DNA from: a virus
Strand: one strand, 5' to 3'
DNA: 41,352 nt
IMG/VR virus record: IMGVR_UViG_3300032241_000369
Coordinates: 1-41,352 of that record
The position numbers were made by a program, and so were the translations under genes. The notes beneath the pieces are model-generated. The model saw nothing but the letters and a program-made list of their open reading frames with translations, had not been told where the DNA came from and made no database searches. Positions 11,992 to 32,200 of the stretch are shown here, one piece after another. Each line of letters opens with the position of its first letter. Positions within the stretch are counted from its first letter, which is position 1.

Positions 11992-14571
11992 TTATACTAC
12001 TTTAACCCACGCACCGTTTAGGAAAATCTGTAAGTGCTGTACACCGTCTGTTTGAGGGTTCCAACTAGTTCCGTTTGATACGGCTAGCATGCCATTAACT
12101 GGGCTAGAAGGCTGGGCACCTGGTTGTAGGGTCATTGTAGCCGCAATGTTAGTAGTAGCTATAACTCCAGCACCGCTAACAACTATCGAAGATCCATCAA
12201 CTTTAACACCACCTAGCTGTGTCATACTTGCTGTAGAAATGCTAATCGTTCCAGACGCATTAACAATACCGCTTGTGCCAACTGCTGGAATAATAACTCC
12301 ACCTAGCACAGAACTCGTAGCTGTTGTTAGAACAACGTTAGAGCTAATAGTACCGCCCGCATTGACTGTGATACTTGTTCCGTCGACTTTGACACCGCCT
12401 AATACGCTAGTACTAGCAGTCGGCAATGTATATGCTGTATAGTTTGCTTTAATCGCACCGTTACTGATTGTAATGGTACTATTATCTATCTTAACTGTAC
12501 CGTACTGGCTTGCAGATGCTTGTGGTAAGTTGGCATAGGTCGCAAGAATAGTACCATCTCCTTCAATTGCTACAGTTACTCCATCTACTTTAACACCGCC
12601 CACAACCGAGGAACTGGCTGTGTTCAATGTGTATGGGGTAGGAGGATATAATGTATATACTCCGTTGGAATATGTTAGAGTTCCTGTTCCACTACTTGCG
12701 GCTGTCACTGCACTTAAACTAGAAGATTGCAAAGGAGTATAACCTAATGCAGTAGTAACTTGATTGCCAGTAATTCCTGTTAAAAATTGCGATAGTAGCG
12801 GAGGAGTATAAGAAAATACTCCGGTTACGTTGTTATATGTTAAAGCAGGAGTGTTACTTGGTGCAGTTGTTGTTACACTTAAATTAGTTAGTTGCAGACC
12901 AGTTGCACTAATTTTTCCTTGACCGTTAATTTTAATAGTAGTACCATCGACGATAACACCGCCCAGTAAAACAGTTGTAGCTGTTTGTAAAGCAAAAGAT
13001 GCTGTTGTAACGCTGATAGTGCCGTCTGGCGCTATTCCAATACCAGTACCAATTTTAACACCACCAACACTTGTATATGTTGCTGTACTAGCAGTTAAGG
13101 TAACGTCTGCTAAGTTAGCAATTGGTACCCAGGAACCGTTCCATGACTGGAATAGTCTTCCATCTGCATTACTTTGAGCAAGTGAGCCTGCATAGTTTGC
13201 GGCAACTGGAAAGAATGTTTGGTTTGGATAGTAAAAAGGTATAATATTATTAGTCGATGCCGCAATCATCTGTCCGCCGAATACGGCTTCTCCAGTTACT
13301 GTTAACTGATTCGTAACTGTTGTATATTGTGATTGAGAATAATTAAACGACCATGGAGATTTTGTTTGATATGTTACTGTTACAGAATTATAAGTAGTAT
13401 CTGCAGGTGCTCCAGGATTTACAACATTAATAGTTCCTTGCATCGCAGGATGGAACTGACAATTATAGTATAGTGTATCAGGTGCCGAACTATCAACTAC
13501 CCAAGTAATAACGCCAGTATCGGTACCAGCATTTGTTACACCCATACTGTAAAGATTAGCAAGTCCGTTGCCTGCAACAGTTTTAATCCAAAGAGGATGT
13601 CCAGTTGCATTAACGTTAAAGGTGTATGTGTTTCCTCTAACTACATATATAGTTTCATTATTAATACCATCGACTACGTATGCTTGACTGTGTACATTGT
13701 TAACGATAAATTGATGATTATTCGATTGACCTTGTACTGTATTATTGTAAACTGCACTAACAGCAGGTGACCATGTTATATATGCTTGTCCTGGATAAGG
13801 ACTAGAGTTTGGTGCTGTTACAGCCGCAGTAATAGTTGCAGAGTAAGGCCCGACACTCGAATCATATGTAAATGGACCTGTAAATGAAAGTGTTGTTCCT
13901 AACAAACCAGCAGGAGTACTTATTCCGGGTGGCAAAGGCATGTAACCTTCTGTAAATTTCCATAATCCTGTTTGTGCTACCCCGCTAGTTCCGTTACTAG
14001 AATCTCCATTCAATACTACTGACGCTGTATTAATACTGACTACCGGAGCTCCCTGCACACTTAAGGTTCCATCTCCCACCGAACTCAAACCGTTTCCAAC
14101 TTTTACACCGCCTAATGTTACAGATGTTGCCGTGCCTAACACTTGCGCTAGAGCAGTTAATGTACCTGCGGCACTGATTGATAATCCCGATCCTACTTGT
14201 ATACCGCCCAGAGTTGAAGTTGTTGCTGTTGACAATACAAAACTATTTTGTGCGCTGATGGTTCCATCAGCTGTTATATTAATATTTTGACCAATCTTAA
14301 CACCACCAAGTCGTGCACCAGTTGCTGTAGTTAGAACAAAAGATGCACCTGGATCTCCTTTAGCGCCTTGGGGGCCTTGCGGGCCTGCAGGGCCTTGCGG
14401 ACCAGTGGCTCCTTGTGGGCCTTCGGATCCTGTAGCACCTTGTGGGCCTGTTAGGTTTTGGCTAAGATAACTGTATGTTAATCTTTTGCTAATTCCGCCA
14501 TCAACAATCAGGAACGCTGATTGCGGACTTAGTGGAGCAGTAACTAGGGGCAGTTGTGTTATTTTTGTCAT
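11992..14571 (-). CDS. Collagen-like tail fibre protein with embedded cupredoxin-like domain
   Basis: 859 aa; GAAGGTGA ribosome-binding site three bases beyond the previous stop. Residues 42-77 are 12 Gly-x-y triplets (GPQ/GAT/GPA type), a collagen-like stalk. Then come ten repeats of about 25-30 residues (x-A-T/S[20 protein letters not shown] type), three before and seven after a non-repeat insert of about 300 residues. In the insert, about 315-390, is a cupredoxin-like domain: [16 protein letters not shown] (H325), then ITWVVD, then [12 protein letters not shown] with C371, H374 and M377. The four potential copper ligands have amicyanin-like C-x2-H-x2-M spacing. The C-terminus ([17 protein letters not shown]) resembles fibre tips. 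It probably forms a trimeric fibre at the baseplate edge. Whether it binds copper is unknown. Confidence 0.8.
14347..14448 (-). repeat. Collagen-like Gly-x-y repeat region
   Basis: About twelve consecutive Gly-x-y triplets at residues 42-77 of the 859-residue fibre protein, mostly GPQ, GAT and GPA. The base composition is locally GC-richer than the flanks (runs of GGGCCTTGCGG type on the + strand), as expected for Gly-Pro codons. It probably forms a short triple-helical stalk. Confidence 0.85.
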
Positions 14572-14574
14572 TTT

Positions 14575-17500
14575 TTATTCACCTTCAATTGGGGTTCCGT
14601 CTTCATCTTGTAATATAAATTCTGTTTCTAGGATAATTACTGGATCTCCACCATAATATGTGTCGTCTGGTAATTGTGATGTATCTTGCAATAAGAATCC
14701 TTTTACAGTATCTGTAAATTCTTGTCCCGGTCTCAATACTGTTTCACTTGCTTGAGCAGGATCTGCATAGCTCGAGAGTTTAAACATACTCTGACCTACA
14801 CGCTGTCTTACAACTACTGTCTGGCCTGGAGTCACTTCAATATTTAACTGTACTACCGGACTTGTTAAACTATTTGTTATAGTAAATTCCGGAGAAACTG
14901 TCATATTACTGGTATTTCCATTACTATCTGTTTGATTAGAATCGTATGCAACTGGATTATAAGTTACAACTGTATTTGTAGTTGGTTTTAACAATTTCTT
15001 GCCGCCGTAAAATACATCAACCTGATCCCACGGATTCGCCAGGGCAGTAAATTTGATGTTTTGCTCAAATGACAAGTTATCGATAGTCAATGCTATATCG
15101 TTTAGACAAATAGCACCATTAGTTACAGTAGTAACATCGCTAGTTGCTGTGCCATTTACAACAACAAAATTTGTTCCTGTAGAAGTTACAGTATAAATTC
15201 CATTGAATGCATTTGGCTGTATTCCAGACACAGTAATTTGATCGCCTGCTACAAATGTCTGAGACGGTGTTGCAGAATAGTAATACGTTATATATGATCC
15301 ATCGCTAATGATGCTTGTTATGTCAGTAAACGCAGGAATATATGTTTGAGTTATAGTCTGATCTAATACAGGTACATTTGCGCCAACTCCTTGGTCGATA
15401 ACTTTAGTGCCTGCAGAATATGCAGAACGTGCGCCAGTGCCTAGTGTAGCTCTGGTGATTTGACTTAATACATTTCCATATTTGGCAAAATATTCAATGC
15501 GCTCGCCTGCAACGTATATGATCCCCGGCAATCCTTTCTGTGGATTTGGGTAACTCAATACTGATCCATCTTCAACTAAAATACTTGTATCTGTTATCAA
15601 TAATGGATTAGTTAATGTAGTTGTTGCTCCATCGCCAATGCGTTTAACGCTAGTTCTGCCTAGGATATCTGTAAACATTCTATAGCTCAAACTACCAACA
15701 TAGGCATCCTGGCTCATGCTCATGATAACAATAGTATCGGAAGGGCCTGTATAGAAACTTGGTCTGATTGTAATTGTAGTCCCATCAGTGCCTATGGTAT
15801 AATCTATATCAGCAATTAAACTGGCACCGTTGTATTCTACCCAGATATATGCGCTGTCGAATACAGGACGCTGTATTTTGTAAACACCTAAACTATTACC
15901 ATTGAATTTTTCTTTTCTTAAGAAATCACCATCATGGTTAGTGAATGATGTAATTCTAATAGTATCGTTAGCACCTCTATAGCTTAGTGTTTGCAGTAAC
16001 AATTGATTGTCTATAATTTGATATTCATAGCTATCAAAGATAACAAATGCCAATGCATCTCCTGTGTTTAAGCGGCCTGACGGAAACTGTACGATTCCTT
16101 CGGCGGCATTTAAGAAATAGTTAGAAGGTGTGTTATCTAATTTAGATCCGTTCAACCAAACTTCGAGTTTGCTATTATCGATGTAACCTCTAGGATAGTT
16201 GATGTCTTGATTTAATCTAACACCAGTAGCATCCAATATAGTCCATTGAATATGTGTACCTGGATTTGCTGGTACATTAGTTGATGTACTATCAAATGTT
16301 GTAATAGTACCGCTTCCTGATAGTTGGAATGACGTTAAGTTGCTTCCTACTATAAAATAAATTGTTGCAGGAGGAATCAATCTACGATTATTCAATTCTA
16401 CGATCACTTGACTGCTGTAAGGACCTGCTATTCCTGGAGGTTGTTCTAACGCAAATACTGTTCCTTGAGCTCTTGGAATAACTTGGGTATAAACTTCCCC
16501 TGCGGCTTTATAAGGTGCATCAAAATACCAAACTTGTACTTTGTTAATCGCGGCGTTGTTGATTCCTTCGATAACTCTAGGTTTGATAATAGTTAAGTAT
16601 GCACGTGGATTACCTCTATTTTCTCCAGACGGAGCAGGTTGCATAGTCCAGCCATATGTCTGTGTAGATGTGCTTGAAAACTCAGGAACCGGAATTCCGT
16701 TAACTGTTACATACACACTACCAATATCGTTCATTGCTACATTTGATAATACGTTGGTTATTGTTGCGGCACTAAACTGTACTTGTTTGTCTATAACGTT
16801 TATTCCACCAATATCAAAAGAACTGATGCTTAGGTAATCAGGACCAGGTAGTGTCGCCAACAATGCGATATTATTGTTAGTGATGTCAAGCAAATAGTCA
16901 GTACCGTAGTGTAGAGGAGTGTTACCTGCAACTACAATTAGCGAACTAGTATTTGCAATATTGCCCATGTAAAACGATTGAGTTTGTCCATCTAACTGAT
17001 ATTTGTAATTTGAAATGAGCGGAGCACTTAAGAATCCTGTAGCACTAGTTAAAGTGTTTACACTGAACACGCTGATCGCAACTGACTCTTGAATTTCTCC
17101 AGGAATCATTTCTTCAGGCGCATGGCTAGCATTAGCAGTAATATATGCATCACCATCTATAACTATGTCAGCAGGATTAATACCTAAAATAGTTCCGCTA
17201 TAGTCGCCACCGCTTATTATTGTATCTAGACTTTCATCATCTGTTGGAATTTGTGTACCATCATCTTTAGAATTTCTAAATGTTACAATATTGTTAGCTG
17301 TTGAAATAGTTGTTATTCCTAATCCAAAACTTCCTGGATTTATATTGTAACTTAGTGTTATAGTAGTAGTCGACGCTGTAGTTGCTTGGTAAGTACCATC
17401 GATCGCAACGTTTTCATTTCCTGCAATTATCCAAGTACCTAACGAAGGAATACTAGTTTGAGTTGATATACCAAATGTAACAAGGTATGGACCTACTCCT

Positions 17501-20500
17501 GTAGTTGTTACTATGTTAGTTACTGTAACATAAGGAATCAATTCTGATTTAGGAATATATACTGTTTCACTAGTTCCATTGCCCGATAACGTTCTTGTGA
17601 TATTAGGTACGCCCTGTACAGAAATTGCTTTGATAGAACCTGCTGTGCTTGTGCTTGTAACTGTAATTATTAAATCGTTTTGATCATAGTGAGTATAAGT
17701 TACGCCATCACTGTTTAGAGTGTAGTAGCTTCTTTGACCACCAAGGCTAGTTCCAAATATTCTTAGAATGTCGTTGACTACATAGCCTGTACCTGTAGTA
17801 ATAGTTGTTACTATATAATTGCTAGGAATAGTATTTGTTATTCCAACATCAAATGTTGCTCCGTTGCCTAGGCTATGCTCTGTTTCGTCTACACTAACGT
17901 TGTTGAATGAGCTTGCTCCGTCAATTCTTACACCATTTAGATATGTATTAATCTGTGTTCCTGTAGCAATACTAAATGGAGTAGTAACCCCAACGCTACC
18001 GTTGTTTAGCTCGGCTAGCTGTAATGACAATGTAGCCACTGTTGCACTCACAACTGCTACTTGAGACTGTAGCGATTCTATCTGTGCCACCAATGATGTA
18101 TAGTAAGGATTTAATACCGATTGGTTTCCTAATGCGGTACTTACGGTCGTGTACTGTGCTACCGTGCCTAGTGTATTTTGTACATAAGTTATCTGGCTGT
18201 TTAGACTTGTTTGTTCTGCTGTTGCAGAAAATAATTCGGATGATATTAAATTAAAATCGTTTGAATTAGAAACCTGAGGATTTAAAACAACCCCATAATA
18301 ATCAGGAGTAGAATAGTTATCCCACGCAGAAGTCCAGTAAGGTAACACTCCATAACCGCCCGAGAAGCTGTATGGTAGAGTATCAACTTTAACACCAGGA
18401 AAATCAATACCTGTCATTAATTGACCTAGCTGATCGGCACCAGGCATTCCTGATGTAGGTGCATAATAATCTTGTATTCTATCTACTGCTGTAAAATATT
18501 CTATATCTTTTGGATATGTTATTTCTATAGTGCTTTTGATAGTAGGAACTGCAGATAATTCTAATGTTGCAAATTCTTTGCTATATTCAATATCGCTTTG
18601 ACTGTACTTGGTTTCAAACCCAGTTGGGCCTGTCATTATGTAAGATGTACCTGTATTTGTTACAAAAGAACCTGTGCTAATAGTAATCGTGTAGGAATCA
18701 GAAAGTTGGAGAACCCCATTAATTTTCAATTCTATATTGGCTTTGTCCATAGTAGGAATCCATGTCAATGGATAACGGAACGTTTCTCCATCTGCTAGAT
18801 AATTGTCTGTAAAATCTTTGGATCCAACTTCTCTATTATATCCAACACGGTCAAATTTAAGTGTTGTAGTTATAGAACGAACAGCACTATTTCCTAATAT
18901 AGGATAAGCTGTTGCAATTACAACTGTAGGTCCGCCACCTCCTGCCATTACTATAGTAGGTGTTGTAGCGTAGCCTGTTCCTGGATTTGTTACGATGATC
19001 TTGTAAACAGTTCCATTAGAAATATATGCATCTGCTGTAGCGCCAGTGCCCAAATCTCCAGGTGCAGAAATAATCTGTACTGTAGGAGCAAATTGATATC
19101 CTTTACCTCCACTAGTTACAATAATTTCTTGTATACCGTAGGTGTAATTTGTAAACCAATTGTTCCAAGGAGCAGATAGTAACTCGCCATTTCCAAACCC
19201 AACTGTACGGAAACGCTTTTGATTCGCATCCCAATAACTAGGTAAGTCAAAGTCGGTTACTAGTGTACTGCTGTAGTCAGTTGTTGTATAGTTTACTGTA
19301 AAATTACGAATCTTAGTATGATATGGTTTAACTTCGTTAATATATGATTCGTAGTAGTTACTGTCTTGTAGTTTATAGGTAGGACGTTGATCCAAAGAAC
19401 CTGCATGATTTGTTACACCAATAAATGTTGTCTTGAATGTCCAGTCTAGATTTTTTTGTTCGCTTAGTGCGTACTTGACTGCTTTGAAATATAAAGTATT
19501 CCAGTAGACTCTTAAATCTCCTACAAATATATCATCTTTCAATGCCAGCAATATATAGTTTAATTCTTGATCAGGTGTTTGGTCAAAGGCTGTTTGGTCA
19601 AACGACGATATTTCATCAAACGCATAAACGGAATTTATAGTGTTCCATAACAAGCTACTGAATTGAATAGTGCCATTTTCGCTAACCATTAAATCCCAAT
19701 TCGCATCAAATGTGCCAACCAGGTTTCCACTAGCGGTTCTTCTCAAGATTAGATAACGGCCATCGCCTCCGTTTCTAACTTTGACATAATTACCTTCTGC
19801 TACTGTACTTAGGATATCTAATTCATATGTGCTATCAACAGTACTCACAGCAGGCTGTAGTTCGTTATATGACGGATCTTTCCAATCGATATAATTCCAA
19901 TAGTATGTTGTATTGTAAGATTGTGTTTGAGATTTAACCCATACTTGTTTACTTTGGACCCATTGATAGATCGCCCAATTACCGTTGCTGGAAGAATCTG
20001 TCTGAACAACACCTGCATATGGTCTTATATTACCGTATGCTACAGTATATCCTTTACCGGCTGATATTATATTAGCACCTACAATTTGTCCTTGAGAATT
20101 TAATACAGTCGTTACAACAGCACCTGTACCATCTCCTGTGATTTCGATATATGGCGCATTTATATAACCGTTTCCAGGATTTAGTATCGTTATTGCATCA
20201 ATACCGCCGTTATCGTTGACACTAATTGAAACTTCTGCCTGTGCAAAGAACTTAGTTACAATAAAGTTTAATGTAGCTAGGTCGGGCACAACTGTATCAT
20301 ACACTCCGGTATTGGCCGCAAGAATTTCTTCCATGGCATTTAGGTTGCTAAAGCTACGCGATCCATTTATTAATTTTGTTGATAAAATACTGTTTGCATA
20401 TTCAAATATATTTTTCATAGCTTGTCTTCTATCAACAAACATGCTTTGACGCGGACGAATATTGATACCTGTTTGCAATCTACTTGGTAGAGTAGGATCA

Positions 20501-23500
20501 GGGACAAGATTACCTAGCGAATCGTGACCTAATATACTATCAATTAATTTTTGTTCTAGCATGGAATTAGGCATACTTTCCGAGTTGCCTTCTTCAACTA
20601 ATAACCATTCAGTATGTATTTGGGCCGCGTTATCTATAGTATCCATTTCTATCGACAAGTGAATATTGTCAGACACTAATGACGTTTTATAATTTACCAT
20701 AGCCAATGCTGTTGGTCCAAGCAACATAGCATACTGTAATCCCTGTGCTTGAGGATTGCTGATTAAACTAGCAACGTCAAATGCACTCATTCGTCTAGTT
20801 GTATTTGCAGGAAGTACTGTTTTATTTTTAACCCAGAAATAATATACATTAGTGAATGACGCTGAAACAGAGTTATAAACTTGTTTAACACTCATTACTG
20901 AATTATCAGAATACTTAGGTTGTCCGCTTATTCCTTGCGCCAGACCATCTGCTGTATCTGCTAATGCCGCCCACTGGCTTGGTAGGTATTGTGTACCGAC
21001 CCATTCGTATACGTCAAACGTACTACCAGGAAATACTCCTCCCCAATTATTTCGTCTATAATCATAGGTGTCTTGCTCATACCACATGTACTTGACAGAG
21101 CTCAAATCCCACCATAGTTGACCAACATGTTCATCAATCCAGTTAGTATTCGTGTCTACAACTACTGCGGAATTTCCTAGACTATAAACAGCAGGGTCAA
21201 ACAATGATTTAAATTTTAATTCTTGATCAGCTTGTCCAGGTATACGACCTTTAATAGGATCTATAAATTCAATGTAATCTACGATTTCTTGATTAAAGTC
21301 ATCTAATGTTACTACTCTTGTTATTTTGTCTAAGTCAACTAGATCATCTTCCGATCTAATAACTTTCCAAGAATTTGTTGTTCCATCTTTACCTGTGAAT
21401 AAAACTATCTGTCCTGTAGCGGCTCCTGCTAAAACTGTAGTAGGTGCTCCAATTATAATCTCATTTGAAGTAATGGTAGCATTATTTCCAAACCCGCTTC
21501 CGGCAACTGCATCGGATGAACTTAATTGTTGACCAAATGCAAAATAGTTGTTATACTCAGTATACACATATACTGATCCAGAACTTGTTGTTATTGAAAC
21601 AAAATGTGTAGCTCCAGAATCCCAAGTAATAGGATTATCTTTGTTAAATGTTGTGTTAGGATCGTAAGCACTTCCGAACGCAGTTACTACTAGTGTTTTG
21701 CTGTCGGGACTAGATGCAATATCAAATCCAAATGTAATACCGTTTATTTGATTTGGAGTTTCAATTATTTGACTAGGAACATATTGACCATTTGTAAATG
21801 TTGATACTACTACTGCTCCTTTAGAAATACCTGTCGGTAGTCCTGTTAGAGAAGCAAATAAGAAATTGCCATCCGGTGACATTACAACCTTATTACCAAA
21901 TCCACAAGTTCCTTGTAAATTGGCTCCTAGTGCAGAATTAATAGTAGCAGTAGTAATGCGTTGAACCTGCGTCATTGTTGGTTGGTTTCCAACCGGAGTA
22001 TCCGAATAGACATCTGATAAACTGTATATTGCTACCTCGCCTGCGCCAGGCACACCTATTGCAACATAGTCCATCGTAGAAGTTGATGCAATCGAATAAC
22101 CAAATTGTGCAGATCCCGAATAGCTATGAGACAACTGAACAGGTGTAGTTGCAGTCATAGATATACTTGTCTGTGTTGAAATTAAAGCGTTCGTTACTGT
22201 TAGTCCGTACTCGTATACTTGACCTGCGCCTTCGCCTGGTGCTCCTACTAGTAGTATCTTTTGTCCGGGGATATTTTGTATAGCGAGAGATTGTCCAAAC
22301 AATGCATTAGCTGGTGAGCCATTCGTGCTACCAATTACTGCCAAAGTATTTTGTAGGTTGGTTTGGGTATTGATATTAGATATTTTTACAAGACCACAGT
22401 TATTAAATCCATTTCCAACGAGACTACCAATGCTATGTGCTACTCCGTTAATTACTTGTAGTTTAACATTGCTTGCATTAGGAGCACCCGCTATTATGAT
22501 CCTATCATTGCTTTCATAGGCTATGCTACTACCAAAGTTAGCAGGGATTCCCGAATCAGAAAATGCCGCGTTTGAGTCATTTAACTCCCAGTTTGTTACT
22601 GGTAACAATACTGTTGTAATAACATTTTTGGCATTGCGAGTTAGCTGTGTGTTATAGAAAAATACTCGACCGATATCATTATTAGCCGCATTGCCCAATG
22701 CAGGATTACTATATCCAGGGGCAGATACTATAAGCACACTATCATCTGCAGAAGAATAAACAACAGAACCATATTTTGCAGATTGTTTTGTTATACCACT
22801 AGACAACACACTGCTTTGGAAATTATCCACTCTTTCAATAACTGCCCATTTACCGTCATTGTTGTCAACCCATACCTTAGTGCCAAACCCTGATGTTTCT
22901 AATACTGGATTGTATTGTATGTCACTAAACGTATTAATTCTAGCAGAAACAAAACGGAATAATAATCCCACAGTAGTTTCTGTATTTGTAGGTATACCCG
23001 ATAGCGAAGTGTTTACTAAGAAGGTGTAGGGATCTGGAGTTCCTACTACAATATAAACAGCATCCATTCCTGTGTTGAATCTCGTAACACTTACAACATC
23101 ACCTGCACTAAGACCGTGCTGTTGATCTGTTGAGAATGCAAATTGATTAGGTGCTCCAATTACTAATTGCGCAGATATAGCTTTAGCAGATAATAGTGTA
23201 TATCTTAGAACATCCCAATCGCCGTCCTCTTTGAATCCCATCCATAAGATATCGCCATCTTTCAATTGATTAGGATTTGCAATATCTAGAATACTATTCT
23301 TGTTGTAAACTGTTGCAGTAATATCATCATAGTGTACATAACCTGCGACAGGCATTTTAATACTGCTACTATTGTATGTTGCAGATGTAGTTGTGAACAC
23401 CCATGATTGGTCAGCAAAATTAATAAAGCCTTCTGGTTTTACTAATAGATCATAAGGAGTTTTGTAATATGTTAGGTCGTTAGCAACAACAGGAATTGAA

Positions 23501-26500
23501 TCAACAAACTCAATTAACTGTGGATTTTCTAAGAACGCAGAATCGCTAAGAGCTACTTCGTATTCGTTCTTGGTAATGATACCACCGTAGGTTCCCACAC
23601 GGAATGCCCAAGCTTCATTGAAAGTTACTAGACCCTGTAGGTTATGAAGGCTAGCCTTTGCTAACTTGTCAATAGCACTCTTAGTACCTTTTTCTCTGAT
23701 GTATCCTTGATAGAATTTATATTGTGCAATAGGATCATTAAAAATATTATCTAGATAGATTCTAGGAGTATAACCTGTTAGATGTTGTGCCATCTTTTCT
23801 TGGCCAGCATCAAAATTGTCGATATCTAATGAGTAGAAATCTTCAAACTGATTGATCTTGTAATCAAAGTTAGGATATAAAGTAGGAACAGGTTTTTTAG
23901 GTAACAAACTCCATTGATTGAAATTAAATGCTATGCTACCGGGAATTAAAACGTTAGTGCCGTAATATTTTCCGTTGTATCTTACAACATCGCCTGCTTG
24001 ATAATCAGTATATTGTGCCCAGTTTTGTATTTCAGCATTATCATATACAAAGCCAGGGCTAAAGAAATCGCCAGTCCACTTTGCTGTTCTAAATCCGCTT
24101 ACGTTTACCCTTAACTGTCTGTAACCTGTTTCTATCTGATAGATTATATCACCAAACAAACTTGTGTTATTGATAATAATAGCATGTTCTTTTTGAACTG
24201 TGCTAAACTGTGCAAAGAATATTCCTTCTTGTGTGTTTATTGTTTGTACTGTAAACACACTATCTTGTCTGCTGATTGTATAGTTGTGTTGAGGGAATGG
24301 ATTTCCATCTGCCTTATAAAGACTGTACTCATAATAAGGATCATCTAAGTTATCAACAACTCCACTAGTCATGTTAAACTTGATTCTATCAGCAAAAGGA
24401 CTTACTGTAATAATAGAATTAGGTTCCCAATTTTGAGAAGTCCAATATAAAAATTCTCTACCACTGAATGTCCAGTCCATGACTACATTTAAATCTGGCT
24501 GTACTTCGTCAAATACGAATCCTTGAGTTTTCAACCACTCGCCGTAACCCACGATTATATCAAATACAGCCTGTATAGTTGGGAATGTAGTGCCGTATGG
24601 TACTATTGTAACTGTTGATTCAAATCTAACAGCACCCAACACGCTTACTCCACCTAGTGTAGGAAGTTTAGGTAACTGCTGGAAGTATTGAGACCCGCCA
24701 AAAGTATTGCCGGCAGTATGAGATAATGTAACAATATAATATGCTCCGGAATATCCAACATACTGTCCTTTCTGATAGAATTGTCCAGCCGTCCATACAA
24801 CATATGATTCGCTCACTCCACCCACGTTGATAGTAGGATCAGTACTGGTTCTAACAGGGCGGTATATTCTATAGTAAGGACGATTCTTGTCGTAACCTCG
24901 GATAGTATATCCGTCGACTCCTTTTTGTACAATTATACCCGAAGCAGAATAAGTGTTGCTAGGATTACTTACGTTGAAGTAAATGTCATAATCTTCTTGT
25001 GGTAATAAAACACCGGGGTTAGCACTTGTAGGATCTACCGCATCAATAATAATTCTAATTTTATCCTTGCTGATAAATCCGCCCATTTTTCCAAATAGGT
25101 TATAATCTATATTTGATAGATCTTCTTGTAATTGTGTTGCATATCCGTATGTTCGTTGATTGTTGGCTTCTACTAATAGTACATTGTAACCAGACGAAAG
25201 GATTCTGTTTCCGTTTATATCTAATTGATTCCATAACAGCAAGTTAGATATATCTAAGAATTTTTGTGTATCTTCTTCGACCAGCTGTGTTGCTTGAGTA
25301 TTTGCTAATATAGTTTCAGTAGTATATCTATATTGATCTGCAATATTTTTAATCATTCTGCTAGGATCAAACATGTATGCAGAATAAATCACAGGACGAG
25401 TTAAGGCTAGCAATATCTGTACAGCATAAGGCCATAAACTGCTTCGGCGCCATGCAGTTTCTGCAGGTCCTTGATCTCCAAAATTCCACGGTTGAGCTAT
25501 TAGAGCAGTATCAATACTTCCGATTATATTTGTAATATCAACTGTTAAAAGATTTCCGTTAGAATCTACAGGAATTATGTCTAATAGATTTGGACGTACA
25601 TATAACGGATCTACTCCGGCACGATCGCCTTGACGAATACGTCCATCACGTAGGTCTTCCCACAATAATAAATTACCGCTAGTATACGGATATGATCCAT
25701 ACTGTGCATCCCACCAAGATGGCTTGACAGTGAATCCTAACATTTCCCAAGGACATGTATGAGGACGATCTGTGTCATAGTACCACTTAAATATCGCTCT
25801 CCAGTTGCCAGGTAATGGTAATCCTGTTACAACGTCTGTTGCGGCGCCATTACTATAATTCCATGTCTTTGGATTTAAGGCATTAAACGAATCATTAGTC
25901 TGATAATCTATTCCAAAGAATCCTGCCCATTTTAAGAAATCAGAAATTATAATATTGTTAGTGTCAAAAGGACCATAGTCATTAGATCTAAATGCACCAG
26001 GAATGATCTCGTTCATGTCCAGCAATTCTCTGTTGTACTGGACTTTTAAATTGTTATAGATTCTAGTTTCTAACTCTAATATAACAGCATCTCTAAAATC
26101 ACCATAGGCGGTAATAATACTACCATCGTGACCTTGTATCACAGTTGTAGGAGTTACATAAGTATCGTCAAGGTATATAGAAGGAATATATGCAGGATAT
26201 AATCCTAACTTAGTAGGAGTTGGAGGAATATAACATCCTGCAGTATTGCCGTAGTCTTTTACTGTAATAACATCATTTAACTTTAAGGTTATTGATAGTG
26301 TTACTACAGTTTCTACCTCACTAAAGGTATAATCTTGACCATAGACTAACTGCGTGTTATTATGATAAACTAAAATAGCACGAACGCCTAATACGTCATT
26401 ATTAAATTCGCTAGTTAGACTATAGTTCTTAACACGTGGATCAGTTACTGTATAATTCCTAACTATTGCATCTTGTCCAAATGCAATCATATCAGAATAG

Positions 26501-29205
26501 CCGTAAGCAAAAGAACTATTTTTACCAGTTGTCATTGCTGTCATTACAACATCAACTGCTTCTGCGGGAGTGTATGTTCCTTGTAATTCTGTTACTCGTT
26601 TTACAAAAGCCAATTTAAATTGACTATAATGATCGGCAACTTTTTTAACTGCATCGAGTAAACTATGTTCTTTGTTACCGATAAAAAATTGAGCGAAACT
26701 CAAAGGAGTTCCGTGATTAACTAATCTAGTTCCATACTGTGAGATAGGACCGATATCTCTTAGATTACTATTGCCTGGGAAAGATCCTTGTAAGTTTAAA
26801 GATGCTCCCGGAGGAGATGCAATGTCTTTAAGACTATGGACTACCTCTGCAAGCGTAAATGATCCAATAGGACCATTTAACGGGTTATTAGTTCCTGCAA
26901 TCGCAATATCATAAAATCCGTTACCATTAGGAGGTTGAGCTGTGAATATTCTTAATAATATGCTGTCATTAACTTTATTGTTAGTTGTAAAATACACAAA
27001 GTACTGACTTCCTTGAGATACTAGATAGTAATCCTCTGTTGGGTTGAATAAAGAATCGTTAACATATACTTGTATCTGTATATCTGTTAGATATCCGGGA
27101 TTATTAACTGCTGTAACTTCGACATAATTTGAAGCAGTAGTACACACTTGGAATTGTACTATAGGAATTTGATAGAAAGGATTTTGTACCCAGGTGTTTA
27201 TATAAGTCGATTGACTTACTGATACCGTACCTTCTGAATTAATAGTTCCCGGAGCAGATAGTCCTGCTGAGAAATTTGTAGTCTTACCAACTTTTAAAAA
27301 GTTATTTTTAACCCATATTGTTATAATATTGTTATTTTCAATAACAGTAAATGTGTCGGTATTAAAATAGTTATTGAATAGATAATCGCCAATATTGTTT
27401 ACATTTAGATATTCTAAAGGAAACCCTAATACAGAATCAGGTGTACCTGTACCTATGCGATATCCAAATAATTTTGTGCCTTGAAACGTGCTTCTATAAT
27501 ATGTAGCATCGCTATAACTAATACCATTCTCATCAAACACATCAAACAGCGGAGCTTGATTCAACGCTGTTTTTTGTTGAGAGAAAATCCATTCGGTTCC
27601 GTTGAACCACCAATTTTTTCCAGCATTTTCTGTACCGCGGAGAACTGAAACGCTAGAATCTGTTGTAGGAACATTATCAGTCGCAGGAGTTAAAGAAATA
27701 ACATTATTTCCGTTGATGTTAACAAAACTAACTGTATATATTCTTCCTTTTACTAGATTATCTGTATCTGCATTAAAGATAACTCGATAACCGTCTTGCA
27801 GGAGTTCGCCATCTACATAGTAACCCGCCTGTCCTTCAACATTTTTAAATGCCGATAGTGTTAGATTATCGATAACGTCAACAGGTGCTGTAAATGTTGA
27901 TCCATAATTATATAATTTTATGTTAGGATAAAATTCAACAATAGGACGTTGTGCTCTATTTTCGTATGGGAACACTACTGTTATATTGTTTGCTTTTGCG
28001 GCCGCTGTTATAACATTTGCATGGCACCAACGATTTCCTCGGCTCCATGGATTTACATCTAGGCTGGCGCGGTTGATAGTTACATACTCCGGGGTCAACG
28101 GAATATTTGTAAAGTTATCAAATGGGTATTGATCAAAATTAGTAGCATCAAAATTAACATCTAAGTCAACTGGTGTTTGGCTACCGACAGACAACGAAGC
28201 CCAATCAGTTAGCGTTATTGCAATACCTACTCCCTCAACTACCCATTCCTTATCATTATAAGATGCTGGGGTTATGTTTCCGTTGAAACGGATTTTCATA
28301 CCATTTGAAAATTGTATTCCGTTTCCAGATGTATATGTTGTCTTGCCTAAAATATCAGCTTCAACATCTAATGCTGTGTTTTGTTCAAGATTCTTAACTA
28401 CAAATTGTCCTACTATAGTGTCATCGTCACCGGCGACATAATAGATAATATCGGGAGTGTTGTCATCTACAACAAATACAATTTGACCAGCAGTACCTGC
28501 ACCGTTGTTGCTTACTGTAGCTGTATAGGCATCCTGAGAACCACTGCTTATAGCAGTTTTAAACCAAACATTATGTATACTATCAACGTTGAATACATAA
28601 GTCATTCCTCTGTATAATGTAATTAAAGGATCTGGTGTTATCCCGTCTGGAGTAAAAACAAAAATCTGTCTTGTTGGATCATCTGTGATAGTATATGTAC
28701 TAACAGTAGCTTGTTGTATTCCTGTGATTTCTATCGTGGTTGGTCCGGTTGGTAACCAATAATATTCTGTGTAGTTTAAAAACTTATCTAGATCAACTTG
28801 CGGATCATAGGCATAGGTTACGCCTTTAAAAAGCCTATTATGGTTTTCAATATTACCATTTTCAAATGCTATTTGATTTAGTATGTCGTCATAGCCAACG
28901 ACTTTTTTAATACTTTGTGCATTGTCTCTAACAATCAATGCTGGTTCTAATTGATAATCGCCTTCTAACTGATTGGCCGCAGGAATATATATGTCAGTAG
29001 CTGGATTATAATTTGGACTTAGTGTGCTACCAATAAATCCACTGATACGCTCTATGATCGGAGGTTGAATCAGTTGATCGATAGTACTGGTTAAAAATTT
29101 TGTATTTTTATCTGTTCGTAAGTATTCTGGTAGTAAATCTACTGCTCTACGTGTAGTAGAAGGATTTCCGACGTCGACAACATTGATAATTGAATTATTT
29201 GCCAC
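14575..29205 (-). CDS. Giant baseplate/tail structural protein (4876 aa), gp7 position
   Basis: Starts at GTG 29205, two bases after the gp6 stop, with GGAAC upstream. Position (gp25, gp6, then this) is that of T4 gp7, about 1032 aa. Landmarks: conserved start LLPEYLRTDKNTKFLTSTID (about 23-42); DKFLNYTEYYWLPTGP (about 140-155); a cupredoxin-like copy lacking ligands (about 194-270); GNWRAIFKWYYDTDRP and WEDLRDGRIRQGD (about 1083-1215); a seven-blade FG-GAP propeller (about 2139-2610); VGQLWWDLSSVKYMWYEQD (about 2695); GxGY repeats (about 2997-3059 and 3354-3436); a coiled coil (about 3652-3738). Many V-x-L-N-G-x-x-L...DY modules lie toward the C-terminus. There is no transmembrane segment or frameshift. 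Other large T4-like phages carry similar giant baseplate proteins. It probably combines a wedge function with surface-exposed modules. Confidence 0.78.
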   Translation of the reverse strand: MANNSIINVVDVGNPSTTRRAVDLLPEYLRTDKNTKFLTSTIDQLIQPPIIERISGFIGSTLSPNYNPATDIYIPAANQLEGDYQLEPALIVRDNAQSIKKVVGYDDILNQIAFENGNIENHNRLFKGVTYAYDPQVDLDKFLNYTEYYWLPTGPTTIEITGIQQATVSTYTITDDPTRQIFVFTPDGITPDPLITLYRGMTYVFNVDSIHNVWFKTAISSGSQDAYTATVSNNGAGTAGQIVFVVDDNTPDIIYYVAGDDDTIVGQFVVKNLEQNTALDVEADILGKTTYTSGNGIQFSNGMKIRFNGNITPASYNDKEWVVEGVGIAITLTDWASLSVGSQTPVDLDVNFDATNFDQYPFDNFTNIPLTPEYVTINRASLDVNPWSRGNRWCHANVITAAAKANNITVVFPYENRAQRPIVEFYPNIKLYNYGSTFTAPVDVIDNLTLSAFKNVEGQAGYYVDGELLQDGYRVIFNADTDNLVKGRIYTVSFVNINGNNVISLTPATDNVPTTDSSVSVLRGTENAGKNWWFNGTEWIFSQQKTALNQAPLFDVFDENGISYSDATYYRSTFQGTKLFGYRIGTGTPDSVLGFPLEYLNVNNIGDYLFNNYFNTDTFTVIENNNIITIWVKNNFLKVGKTTNFSAGLSAPGTINSEGTVSVSQSTYINTWVQNPFYQIPIVQFQVCTTASNYVEVTAVNNPGYLTDIQIQVYVNDSLFNPTEDYYLVSQGSQYFVYFTTNNKVNDSILLRIFTAQPPNGNGFYDIAIAGTNNPLNGPIGSFTLAEVVHSLKDIASPPGASLNLQGSFPGNSNLRDIGPISQYGTRLVNHGTPLSFAQFFIGNKEHSLLDAVKKVADHYSQFKLAFVKRVTELQGTYTPAEAVDVVMTAMTTGKNSSFAYGYSDMIAFGQDAIVRNYTVTDPRVKNYSLTSEFNNDVLGVRAILVYHNNTQLVYGQDYTFSEVETVVTLSITLKLNDVITVKDYGNTAGCYIPPTPTKLGLYPAYIPSIYLDDTYVTPTTVIQGHDGSIITAYGDFRDAVILELETRIYNNLKVQYNRELLDMNEIIPGAFRSNDYGPFDTNNIIISDFLKWAGFFGIDYQTNDSFNALNPKTWNYSNGAATDVVTGLPLPGNWRAIFKWYYDTDRPHTCPWEMLGFTVKPSWWDAQYGSYPYTSGNLLLWEDLRDGRIRQGDRAGVDPLYVRPNLLDIIPVDSNGNLLTVDITNIIGSIDTALIAQPWNFGDQGPAETAWRRSSLWPYAVQILLALTRPVIYSAYMFDPSRMIKNIADQYRYTTETILANTQATQLVEEDTQKFLDISNLLLWNQLDINGNRILSSGYNVLLVEANNQRTYGYATQLQEDLSNIDYNLFGKMGGFISKDKIRIIIDAVDPTSANPGVLLPQEDYDIYFNVSNPSNTYSASGIIVQKGVDGYTIRGYDKNRPYYRIYRPVRTSTDPTINVGGVSESYVVWTAGQFYQKGQYVGYSGAYYIVTLSHTAGNTFGGSQYFQQLPKLPTLGGVSVLGAVRFESTVTIVPYGTTFPTIQAVFDIIVGYGEWLKTQGFVFDEVQPDLNVVMDWTFSGREFLYWTSQNWEPNSIITVSPFADRIKFNMTSGVVDNLDDPYYEYSLYKADGNPFPQHNYTISRQDSVFTVQTINTQEGIFFAQFSTVQKEHAIIINNTSLFGDIIYQIETGYRQLRVNVSGFRTAKWTGDFFSPGFVYDNAEIQNWAQYTDYQAGDVVRYNGKYYGTNVLIPGSIAFNFNQWSLLPKKPVPTLYPNFDYKINQFEDFYSLDIDNFDAGQEKMAQHLTGYTPRIYLDNIFNDPIAQYKFYQGYIREKGTKSAIDKLAKASLHNLQGLVTFNEAWAFRVGTYGGIITKNEYEVALSDSAFLENPQLIEFVDSIPVVANDLTYYKTPYDLLVKPEGFINFADQSWVFTTTSATYNSSSIKMPVAGYVHYDDITATVYNKNSILDIANPNQLKDGDILWMGFKEDGDWDVLRYTLLSAKAISAQLVIGAPNQFAFSTDQQHGLSAGDVVSVTRFNTGMDAVYIVVGTPDPYTFLVNTSLSGIPTNTETTVGLLFRFVSARINTFSDIQYNPVLETSGFGTKVWVDNNDGKWAVIERVDNFQSSVLSSGITKQSAKYGSVVYSSADDSVLIVSAPGYSNPALGNAANNDIGRVFFYNTQLTRNAKNVITTVLLPVTNWELNDSNAAFSDSGIPANFGSSIAYESNDRIIIAGAPNASNVKLQVINGVAHSIGSLVGNGFNNCGLVKISNINTQTNLQNTLAVIGSTNGSPANALFGQSLAIQNIPGQKILLVGAPGEGAGQVYEYGLTVTNALISTQTSISMTATTPVQLSHSYSGSAQFGYSIASTSTMDYVAIGVPGAGEVAIYSLSDVYSDTPVGNQPTMTQVQRITTATINSALGANLQGTCGFGNKVVMSPDGNFLFASLTGLPTGISKGAVVVSTFTNGQYVPSQIIETPNQINGITFGFDIASSPDSKTLVVTAFGSAYDPNTTFNKDNPITWDSGATHFVSITTSSGSVYVYTEYNNYFAFGQQLSSSDAVAGSGFGNNATITSNEIIIGAPTTVLAGAATGQIVLFTGKDGTTNSWKVIRSEDDLVDLDKITRVVTLDDFNQEIVDYIEFIDPIKGRIPGQADQELKFKSLFDPAVYSLGNSAVVVDTNTNWIDEHVGQLWWDLSSVKYMWYEQDTYDYRRNNWGGVFPGSTFDVYEWVGTQYLPSQWAALADTADGLAQGISGQPKYSDNSVMSVKQVYNSVSASFTNVYYFWVKNKTVLPANTTRRMSAFDVASLISNPQAQGLQYAMLLGPTALAMVNYKTSLVSDNIHLSIEMDTIDNAAQIHTEWLLVEEGNSESMPNSMLEQKLIDSILGHDSLGNLVPDPTLPSRLQTGINIRPRQSMFVDRRQAMKNIFEYANSILSTKLINGSRSFSNLNAMEEILAANTGVYDTVVPDLATLNFIVTKFFAQAEVSISVNDNGGIDAITILNPGNGYINAPYIEITGDGTGAVVTTVLNSQGQIVGANIISAGKGYTVAYGNIRPYAGVVQTDSSSNGNWAIYQWVQSKQVWVKSQTQSYNTTYYWNYIDWKDPSYNELQPAVSTVDSTYELDILSTVAEGNYVKVRNGGDGRYLILRRTASGNLVGTFDANWDLMVSENGTIQFSSLLWNTINSVYAFDEISSFDQTAFDQTPDQELNYILLALKDDIFVGDLRVYWNTLYFKAVKYALSEQKNLDWTFKTTFIGVTNHAGSLDQRPTYKLQDSNYYESYINEVKPYHTKIRNFTVNYTTTDYSSTLVTDFDLPSYWDANQKRFRTVGFGNGELLSAPWNNWFTNYTYGIQEIIVTSGGKGYQFAPTVQIISAPGDLGTGATADAYISNGTVYKIIVTNPGTGYATTPTIVMAGGGGPTVVIATAYPILGNSAVRSITTTLKFDRVGYNREVGSKDFTDNYLADGETFRYPLTWIPTMDKANIELKINGVLQLSDSYTITISTGSFVTNTGTSYIMTGPTGFETKYSQSDIEYSKEFATLELSAVPTIKSTIEITYPKDIEYFTAVDRIQDYYAPTSGMPGADQLGQLMTGIDFPGVKVDTLPYSFSGGYGVLPYWTSAWDNYSTPDYYGVVLNPQVSNSNDFNLISSELFSATAEQTSLNSQITYVQNTLGTVAQYTTVSTALGNQSVLNPYYTSLVAQIESLQSQVAVVSATVATLSLQLAELNNGSVGVTTPFSIATGTQINTYLNGVRIDGASSFNNVSVDETEHSLGNGATFDVGITNTIPSNYIVTTITTGTGYVVNDILRIFGTSLGGQRSYYTLNSDGVTYTHYDQNDLIITVTSTSTAGSIKAISVQGVPNITRTLSGNGTSETVYIPKSELIPYVTVTNIVTTTGVGPYLVTFGISTQTSIPSLGTWIIAGNENVAIDGTYQATTASTTTITLSYNINPGSFGLGITTISTANNIVTFRNSKDDGTQIPTDDESLDTIISGGDYSGTILGINPADIVIDGDAYITANASHAPEEMIPGEIQESVAISVFSVNTLTSATGFLSAPLISNYKYQLDGQTQSFYMGNIANTSSLIVVAGNTPLHYGTDYLLDITNNNIALLATLPGPDYLSISSFDIGGINVIDKQVQFSAATITNVLSNVAMNDIGSVYVTVNGIPVPEFSSTSTQTYGWTMQPAPSGENRGNPRAYLTIIKPRVIEGINNAAINKVQVWYFDAPYKAAGEVYTQVIPRAQGTVFALEQPPGIAGPYSSQVIVELNNRRLIPPATIYFIVGSNLTSFQLSGSGTITTFDSTSTNVPANPGTHIQWTILDATGVRLNQDINYPRGYIDNSKLEVWLNGSKLDNTPSNYFLNAAEGIVQFPSGRLNTGDALAFVIFDSYEYQIIDNQLLLQTLSYRGANDTIRITSFTNHDGDFLRKEKFNGNSLGVYKIQRPVFDSAYIWVEYNGASLIADIDYTIGTDGTTITIRPSFYTGPSDTIVIMSMSQDAYVGSLSYRMFTDILGRTSVKRIGDGATTTLTNPLLITDTSILVEDGSVLSYPNPQKGLPGIIYVAGERIEYFAKYGNVLSQITRATLGTGARSAYSAGTKVIDQGVGANVPVLDQTITQTYIPAFTDITSIISDGSYITYYYSATPSQTFVAGDQITVSGIQPNAFNGIYTVTSTGTNFVVVNGTATSDVTTVTNGAICLNDIALTIDNLSFEQNIKFTALANPWDQVDVFYGGKKLLKPTTNTVVTYNPVAYDSNQTDSNGNTSNMTVSPEFTITNSLTSPVVQLNIEVTPGQTVVVRQRVGQSMFKLSSYADPAQASETVLRPGQEFTDTVKGFLLQDTSQLPDDTYYGGDPVIILETEFILQDEDGTPIEGE
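18895..19150 (-). repeat. GxGY repeat pair in giant protein
   Basis: Two repeats read GIQEIIVTSGGKGYQFAPTV and YKIIVTNPGTGYATTPTIVM, separated by an alanine- and glycine-rich GTGATADAY stretch. The same unit occurs in gp6 and at 20030-20215. It is a short beta module of unassigned function. Confidence 0.65.
20030..20215 (-). repeat. GxGY repeat pair in giant protein (second site)
   Basis: The motifs are IDAITILNPGNGYINAPYIE and VGANIISAGKGYTVAYG, with GTGAVVTTVLN between. It is the same module type as at 18895-19150 and in gp6. Confidence 0.65.
21378..22790 (-). repeat. Seven FG-GAP-like repeats in giant protein (probable beta-propeller)
   Basis: Seven repeats start with (K)YG or FG and continue into a V/I-rich strand and mostly G/S-A-P: YGSVVYSSADDSVLIVSAPG, FGSSIAYESNDRIIIAGAPN, FGQSLAIQN with ILLVGAPG, FGYSIASTSTMDYVAIGVPG, FGNKVVMSPDG with LFASLTG, FGFDIASSPDSKTLVVTAFG, and FGNNATITSNEIIIGAPT. 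Several blades end in a strand like GRVFFYN, GQVYEYG, EVAIYSL or GQIVLFTG. This matches the integrin-like FG-GAP family. The calcium-binding D-x-D-x-DG loop is not obvious. Confidence 0.75.
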
Positions 29206-29207
29206 TT

Positions 29208-32200
29208 TTATGTTCCGATTGTGTTAACAACAATACTTGCGGTAGTGTTGATTTGTGAAGCTGTCAATGCACTAATAACTTCTATGTCGTTAATAGTTGC
29301 TCCGCTTACGAAAATTTCGTTTGACTGGCAGGCTATTTCAAATAGACTACCAAATACTATATTTGTTTTAGGTACAAGTACAAAGTTAGTTATGTCAGGA
29401 GTCATTATATTCATGACATAGGTTGCTAATTCACCAAAATTAAATTTCTGACCAAAGTCCCAATTCTCTATCGCAAAGAAATCATTGATCGCTTGTAAAA
29501 TACCTGTGCTGATTTGATTAGAACTTAATGTGCTTGTAGGACTTTGAACAGCTTTAAATGTTCCTTGGAGCTGTACAGGAGCTTGACTGCCGAATAGCAC
29601 TTTGTAATTTGCATTGTGATATATGATAGTATCACTGATACTTTTTATTGGTTCTAACAGCGAAGCATATTGAGATTCTAAACTGTTTGTTGACGGTGCA
29701 ACTGGTGCTCCGGTTGTTGCGCCAGAAGATAACCATCCACGATATGCTGTATCGTAAGCGGAAGATAATAGATAGATATCTACAATATTTGTCTTGCTTG
29801 GATCTAATCTACGTTCTTCTCCTGCATTATGCTGATACTGGAACTTAAGATTTCCACGGCCTGGTTTAACAAAATAGCTAGGTTCTAATTGATATGTATA
29901 AGAATTAGTAGAATCTGCGTATGTTGTTACTGATGTTATACTCTTAACAACATCTGCTGTATAGAAATAAATCAACTGTCCAACTCCGTACAGCCCGCCA
30001 GTTGTTGGAACTGTAGTTTCATCCGGATAGGCAACAAACTGACTAGAGTCAACTGTTTTATAGCGCAAGCCATCTGCTAGTGTCATAAAATAAACAAAGT
30101 TACATAGATATCCTGTTTGAGGACTTACTGTCTCTGGACTAACAATATCCATAAAAGAATCCGGATTGTCTATGTTACCATCATTATTTGCATCATAAAA
30201 ACTAATTTTAACTTTTTTAGGTTCAACATACCCGTCTGGGTCTATAACTGGACTGTCTATTTGCCAGTTAAAGTCTTGACCAAGATGGTCTATAGTCGAC
30301 GATGCTAGTATACTCTGAGAAGCATTGCCAATAGTCACGCTAGAATTAAGAGTTACGTTTGTTCCAGAGTTGGCTATATAATAATTAGAAATAGAACCAT
30401 TAGTTAGGAAAGGAATAACAAGCGCATTGCCGATCGAGACTGAGGGTGTACTAGTATAACCTGAACCAGGAACATCTATACTAAGTCCTAAAAGATTACC
30501 TGGACCAACAGATGATACAACAATGATTGAATTGGAACCACCTGACGGTATGATTTGATCCCCTACTTTATAACCACGACCGGGGTTGACTATAACCGCA
30601 CTAGTGATCGCACCATTTGTTTCTGTTATAGTCACTGTCAAGCCTGCACCTGCGCCATTTGTAGTAGTTGCAATAGCAGTACCGTCACTGTATCCAGAAC
30701 CTCCGCCGATTATACGTATACCTGTAGCAGGACCAGCAGTTGCCGATATTGTAATTTGTGCCGGTGTGTAGCTGTTAGGAGACCAATTTACTCCCAATAC
30801 CTTGATAGTATCTTTAATCACACGGTTGTTGATGTAGTCATAATTCTGTGAAGTATTATCAATATAAAATGCAGTTTCTGCCGCACTCTCAAACAAATAA
30901 TCTAGTATTCTATAATAGACGTTATAACTGTTTCCAGTCCATTGAAATGCAATCATCCAACTAGCATCTTTATTGGCATTGGTTGTGTCTCCTTGATAAA
31001 TCAAATCAAAGGGACTGTTAAGATCTAAATTTGTATCAACTATAACAAACCATTGTCTAGAAATTCTATCAAAGCTCAATCCAAAGTTTCGGTTGATTAA
31101 TCCAAGATTAACTATTTGATTTTCTAACGCATATGACCAATTAGTAACAAACGTTGGAATAACTTCAACAGGTACCGCAGTCGAAGGCACGTAGTTTGCT
31201 AGTGTTATAGGACCCGAACCATCAACCAACTTACCTGCTCCACTATTTGCACCATCGCCTATAATTTGTATTACTTTGACCCACATGTAATCTGTAGTAG
31301 TTTCATCTCGAGTTGAAGTTAGCTGACCAGTTGGTAAAAAATAATAATTCTGTGGTGGCGCAAATTTAATCAAAGAACCGGGTGTTACGTATTGTAAATT
31401 GCTTGAACTGAAGTAGCCGGTTTCAGTAGGTGCACCATACTGGTTATTAAAATAACCAGTTGTTTGATTAGTTGAATTTTTTACAGTTACCCAAGACAGC
31501 GACAAATTAGACAAAGTCGGTCTAGGATAATTTTGCATGTAGAAATTTTTAAAACTAGGACTTTGAACGATTGGTTCTATTTTTCCTTTTAGTGTTCCAA
31601 AGAAATCATTTCTTGTTGTAAATTTAAAATTAAGAGTCTGCTGACTTTGTTCTTCGTAGATAATTCCGTCATCGCAAAAAATATTAGTACTTGAATATTT
31701 TCCTGTTATGTCGCTTAGTTCAAAATATTTTGAAATGCCACTGCTGGATCTATTGATACTCTTTACTTTTAAAATATCTGTACCCACTGTTAAAGGACCA
31801 ATCTGATAGTCCTCACCTGTGATCATACGATTCTGTAGATAATAAGTCTGTGGTGCTTTTTGTTTTATAGAAGCAACAGATTCTGATCCAGAACTATTTG
31901 TTACTGTATATTGTAATGTCAGTGTTAGTTTAAGGGTGTTTAATTGTCCGCTCTTATTGTAATACGGAATAGAAACTGATATTCCGCTAACTTGTTCAGG
32001 CGTAATAGAATATGTTAATCCATTACTTTGTCTGTAGAATAACCGGAAGTTACCTTTAGGTAAGTTTCCAAAGCTACCATCTGCAAAATTTAAATCAATT
32101 TGATCATTTGCTCTTGTTGATACTGCATATAGATTTCTTATATCACTAGACAAACTATTATAGATAACATTGTTACCCACAGTTGAAGGAACTTTAGACC

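Follow-up and report, generated by a model that had tools for sequence, protein, structure and literature searches.

The cupredoxin superfamily is characterized by a Greek-key beta sandwich of ∼7–9 strands, and type 1 copper sites by ligands in the order His...Cys-xn-His-xm-Met. Both are classic. In amicyanin of Paracoccus denitrificans (NCBIfam TIGR02657; PDB 1aac and 2gb2), the copper ligands are His53, Cys92, His95, and Met98 (PMC12723479). In phage tails, the nearest published idea concerns iron, as T4 gp37 holds iron in HxH sites and HxH motifs occur in the fibers of marine phages (the Ferrojan horse hypothesis; PMC11705849). Here we describe a predicted cupredoxin domain that recurs in phage tails with an intact ligand set, which is the new part. 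Our searches of Pfam, PHROGs, and NCBIfam gave no name for the domain, and no description of a tail cupredoxin was found in the open-access papers covered. Two open-access matches were rejected, as one, for cupredoxin and cyanophage, concerns Borgs and the other, for copper binding, viral NirK.

The window, that is, the whole stretch of DNA analyzed, comprises the 41,352 nucleotides of IMG/VR record IMGVR_UViG_3300032241_000369. Its minus strand encodes a collagen-like tail fiber protein of 859 aa, P0001 (11992..14571), in which stretches of LGGVKVG-type repeats flank a non-repeat insert on either side. The Pfam scan matched Collagen (PF01391) at residues 42–75, slightly below the gathering score. 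The PHROG search returned tail fiber families and the baseplate wedge tail fiber connector, the latter (phrog_677) matching residues 148–385 with E = 8e-20. The fiber gene adjoins the gene of a 4876-aa virion structural protein (14575..29205, minus strand; phrog_10938, 1050 bits), next to which lies a baseplate wedge subunit gene (29208..33113, minus strand; phrog_10646, 926 bits, and phrog_219). The tail genes near the fiber encode wedge subunits, a gp25-like subunit, and a hub with lysozyme. Hence, both PHROG homology and the baseplate genes alongside identify P0001 as a tail fiber or fiber connector, and these neighbors indicate that the virus is a contractile-tailed phage. The wedge protein shares ∼35% identity with its counterpart in PA5oct-type jumbo phages; as these nearest relatives infect other hosts, we dropped the assignment of the window to a cyanophage.

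The domain of interest occupies residues ∼288–385 of P0001 (13417..13710, minus strand), as delimited by the homology span. The preliminary description had placed it at 13250–13680, which overshoots the C-terminal end by ∼160 bases and misses ∼30 bases at the N-terminal end; the residues it had listed, H325 and C371-x2-H374-x2-M377, are indeed present in the 859-aa protein. The motif GNTYTFNV starts at residue 313, GHPLW at 324, and ITWVVD at 355, and the segment with Cys, His, and Met covers residues 368–379. The predicted ligands, all on the minus strand, are the first His, H325, within GHPLW (13597..13599), C371 (13459..13461), which is the only cysteine of P0001, the second His, H374 (13450..13452), and the axial Met, M377 (13441..13443). 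A likeness to amicyanin had been proposed from the spacing, and the profile alignment agrees with it, setting GHpfwi of the domain on GHNVHF of amicyanin (H325 on His53) and YYncqlHssM on DYHCTPHPFM (C371, H374, and M377 on Cys92, His95, and Met98). Thus, the alignment puts the ligands in the type 1 order at homologous places. The C-x2-H-x2-M triplet arose by chance in one of 20,000 shuffles of P0001, and H325 is invariant in both domain alignments, A1 (31 distinct copies) and A2.

At the sequence level, matches to known proteins are weak. A single-sequence search of the PDB with the window domain yielded nothing useful (profilin at E = 0.94). The domain profile gave weak matches to PDB sequences, mostly cupredoxins, in one search (nitrite reductase, laccase, amicyanin, and auracyanin), and in another retrieved plastocyanin (1kdi, E = 0.0068), nitrite reductases, auracyanin, amicyanin, pseudoazurin, and azurin; a non-cupredoxin match was the penicillin acylase group at E = 0.25–0.41. 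The single-sequence comparison with cupredoxin family models, proposed as a check in the preliminary description, had a negative outcome for PF00127 (plastocyanin/azurin), the window domain being absent from the matches listed and 3 of the 31 relatives having weak, sub-cut-off ones (best E = 0.0052). The amicyanin equivalog TIGR02657 scored 14.2 bits against 110.2, the best NCBIfam amicyanin match having E = 0.0011. The nearest Pfam model was PF25489 (At5g54830-like), matched by 17 of the 31 relatives; the window domain scored 21.5 bits against the gathering score of 27 (E = 2.4e-4).

The domain shares with amicyanin the ligand order, the C-x2-H-x2-M loop, and the fold, but the identity is ∼20%, and the phage domain has no apparent signal peptide and is embedded in a fiber. 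Plastocyanin, auracyanin, CuNiR, and laccase domains (PF00127 and relatives) likewise share the fold, and their weak profile matches span the ligand motif. Plastocyanin, however, has a longer ligand loop, and laccases, unlike the P0001 domain, are multi-domain enzymes with extra copper centers. Pro stands directly behind the first His in 29 of 33 domain copies, as opposed to Asn54 of amicyanin and Ser of rusticyanin; this His-Pro recalls the multicopper oxidases, where Pro follows the first His ligand within the HPxHxHGH motif. In amicyanin and rusticyanin, the residue at this position tunes the potential and also affects stability (PMC12723479). Therefore, were the site filled, its potential might be unusual.

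The structure of residues 285–388 (104 residues) was modeled with AF2 from alignment A1, and the predicted domain is all-beta, with eight strands and a mean pLDDT of 96.6. In model numbering, H41 and M93 directly precede strands 43–46 and 94–100, respectively, and C87 ends strand 82–87, positions that fit a type 1 site. The best 50 Foldseek matches in PDB are all cupredoxins or multicopper enzymes with probability 1.00; they include AcoP (the best one, E = 1.2e-5), rusticyanin, purple cupredoxin, plastocyanin, amicyanin, CuNiR, laccase, and CueO, the E values from AcoP through laccase in this list running from 1e-5 to 8e-4. The TM-scores by query length are moderate, 0.47–0.67 among these 50 matches, as would be expected of a distant member of the superfamily. 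The best fold matches, AcoP and rusticyanin of Acidithiobacillus ferrooxidans (E from 1.2e-5 to 1.6e-4, TM-score by query 0.57–0.67), differ from the P0001 domain in being longer (∼126–155 vs. 104 residues) and in being exported electron carriers, with identity of 12–23%. The modeled domain has the strand number and topology of the superfamily, so the fold comparison suggested at the outset came out in favor of the copper protein fold, and the insert almost certainly adopts it. The fold is matched as well by small beta-sandwich proteins from Pithovirus and Marseillevirus (LCPAC and LCMAC; BFVD A0A481Z6J5, A0A481Z7Q7, and A0A481YVH3), with TM-scores by query of 0.80–0.83 and 20–30% identity.

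With tblastn, we found the domain in 344 of 50,697 GenBank phage records, mostly in phages of Synechococcus and Prochlorococcus, and the profile scan of IMG/VR yielded at least 567 confirmed stretches containing it. The usual carrier in the phage records is a protein labeled as baseplate wedge tail fiber connector. In S-SSM5, ACG-2014d, S-RIM50, P-RSM1, P-RSM3, P-SSM7, S-RIM14, S-SSM7, and syn9, the domain forms the last 100 residues of the connector, while other virion proteins carry it in P-SSM2, the podovirus P-GSP1, and S-TIM5. The cyanophage connector (gp9 or gp10-like; phrog_677) thus shares with the window fiber the domain, usually C-terminal and with all four ligands, but differs from it outside the domain, and the baseplate genes of the window are nearer to those of PA5oct-type phages. 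The labels of the domain-bearing proteins are inconsistent (subtilisin-like protease, wedge connector, or hypothetical protein). In P-SSM2, four domain copies are distributed over three different open frames (L044 and L188–L190). A protein of S-H9-1 annotated as subtilisin-like serine protease (L199; MW117966.1, 77755–79761) ends in the domain.

The GTDB scan produced 60 loci, some of which are phage contigs binned with bacteria, while others encode bacterial proteins with lipoprotein-like starts. Flavobacterium proteins, for example, contain CHRD domains and a copy of the domain at the C-terminus, and a Bdellovibrionales protein of ∼146 residues is hardly more than the domain itself. The same two layouts, that is, lipoprotein-like CHRD proteins with a C-terminal copy or near-bare domains of ∼150 aa, were seen in L129–L165 (Flavobacteriaceae and others), L131, L174, and L181. 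These cellular relatives, lipoprotein-like or otherwise apparently exported, are candidates for uncharacterized blue copper proteins. Given their lipoprotein-like starts, exported bacterial cupredoxins are a plausible source from which the phage domain may have been derived. In addition, several marine proteobacterial genomes encode a conserved protein of ∼430 aa in which the domain occurs twice in tandem (L127, L128, L130, L132, L153, L162, and L164, from the PS1 clade, Rhodobiaceae, and other proteobacterial genomes).

The window itself contains a second copy of the domain, close to the N-terminus of the 4876-aa virion protein (28390..28695, minus strand; YYVAGDDDTIVG). It is 40% identical to the fiber domain and is a natural ligand-less copy, which keeps the first His but has Ala for Cys, Asp for the second His, and Ile for Met. 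Relatives of the 4876-aa protein in four loci (L166–L169; 37–40% identical over ∼600 residues) have the domain in the same place with all four ligands intact. These loci are binned as Porticoccaceae, Pelagibacter, and Betaproteobacteria genomes and are probably phage contigs. A rearranged form was seen in four tail proteins with LamG lectin domains (L034–L037, found again as L209–L212), which have the two halves of the domain in reverse order, the C-terminal one first. The halves are joined by SGT-EK, are complementary without overlap, and keep all four ligands; in L036, the rearranged domain covers ORF residues ∼918–1026. The AF2 model of this form, built from three sequences, is poor (pLDDT 47.7), but by sequence these proteins apparently represent a natural circular permutation preserving the predicted site.

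We then considered whether the four ligands are retained or lost as a set. As ligand residues form part of the patterns in two of the three scan types, the ligand counts from the pattern scans (75 of 81 viral and 51 of 52 bacterial copies) are inflated; they were set aside, and pattern-free copies were counted apart. There were 40 distinct pattern-free copies, or 33 at 80% non-redundancy, and 27 of the 33 have all four residues. The remaining six (HSDM, HSTL, FAVM, HADI, and two incomplete alignments) each lack at least two ligands, and none lacks just one. When the columns were shuffled independently, 17.6 intact copies were expected, and a count of 27 did not arise once in 100,000 shuffles; with the two incomplete rows removed, the expectation was 21.3, and again no shuffle reached the observed number, although these figures are not clean probabilities, as the sequences are related. 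Retention or loss of all or several ligands together would be expected if the four residues share a metal site. Among the pattern-bearing copies, only 2 of 219 have lost a single ligand. In the set fetched with tblastn (17 genome records with isolate or single-cell names together with P-SSM2, S-SSM5, and P-GSP1), every main copy retains the site except that of RB11-B. The mean column identity among domain copies is ∼45%, most copies having all four ligands, and in homologous phage fibers few positions are as conserved as the His, Cys, His, and Met; a lack of such conservation had been named in the preliminary description as a refutation.

These counts bear directly on whether a metal is needed at all. 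The fold could have been reused as an immunoglobulin-like adhesive spacer, with the four residues kept for packing only; ligand-less degenerate copies exist and persist, one of them in this window, and beta-sandwich domains are often reused in fibers. Packing, however, would not demand that Cys, two His, and Met be lost together, and most copies keep exactly these four across the mean column identity given above, so that we regard a metal-free domain in the fiber as quite improbable. The adhesin without metal, put forward earlier as a fallback, thus fits some copies, including the second one of the window, and does not fit the fiber copy with its four intact ligands. Nor is the locus likely to be a product of chimeric assembly. 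The record is a metagenomic fragment without an isolate, but two independent contigs encode the fiber region at 98 and 96% identity (L001 and L002), the former in one open frame of equal length, and the domain recurs in many isolate genomes. The chance of an artifact is therefore negligible, and we consider it ruled out by these two contigs.

If the site is real, the metal could still be another one, zinc or iron, serving to stabilize the fiber or to mimic a metal source in the manner of a Ferrojan or Trojan horse. Cupredoxin sites do accept other metals in vitro. The iron sites of T4 gp37 and the HxH motifs of marine phage fibers are a published precedent for metal in a tail fiber (PMC11705849). 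Still, those sites have other ligands, another fold, and iron rather than copper, while the ligand set and order in the P0001 domain are those of type 1 copper and not HxH, and its PDB relatives are copper proteins; another natural metal is accordingly unlikely. About as unlikely, in our estimate, is a redox-active copper domain whose site would be switched by the host surface, light-driven redox, or oxygen species, and would gate adsorption or tail triggering. Type 1 sites are adapted to electron transfer, the nearest PDB folds are electron carriers, and marine Synechococcus and Prochlorococcus are the hosts of most annotated phages that carry the domain; the adsorption of several marine cyanomyoviruses has been reported to be light-dependent (PMC2984593). 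This link to light is no more than an association, phages of other apparent hosts have the domain too (L166–L169), and the window baseplate resembles that of non-cyanophage jumbo phages. Moreover, we know of no redox partner in a phage tail. In its broad form, where redox-active type 1 copper on many marine phage tails, including those of most sequenced domain-bearing T4-like cyanophages, controls attachment or tail triggering, the proposal is a little more doubtful yet.

We therefore favor metal-clamped attachment over electron transfer, as no redox partner in the tail is known to us. With a probability of about 0.7, the P0001 insert is a genuine cupredoxin with an amicyanin-type type 1 metal site, carried by the tail fiber of a contractile phage, related to an extracytoplasmic bacterial family, and used for metal-clamped attachment. 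H325, C371, H374, and M377 very probably form a metal site, copper is its likely natural metal, and for the role we lean towards a mainly structural or adhesive one. The apo-domain would fold together with the fiber in the host cytoplasm and take up copper after lysis; the timing is suggested by the very tight copper binding of type 1 sites, which are largely preformed in the apo state. Once filled, the site would clamp the domain, which could serve in attachment to the host surface as a metal-stabilized adhesin or recognition module. A counterpoint to copper is the place of synthesis. Free copper is scarce in the cytoplasm and type 1 copper proteins are mostly exported, but P0001 is made in the cytoplasm, and by eye its N-terminus shows neither the signal peptide nor the lipobox of an exported carrier.

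Since the domain is found in hundreds of sequenced phages, mostly of marine cyanobacteria, many virus tails may carry copper. If copper is bound, virions of abundant marine phages would have blue-copper centers at the tail end that contacts the host, and copper would join iron in the proposed link between viruses and trace metals. This would also open a way to test whether adsorption depends on metal or redox state, and would assign a function to a large, nameless, and wrongly labeled domain family. We know of no explanation for the light dependence of cyanophage adsorption; should the redox-active alternative be true, copper or redox control of the tails could underlie it.
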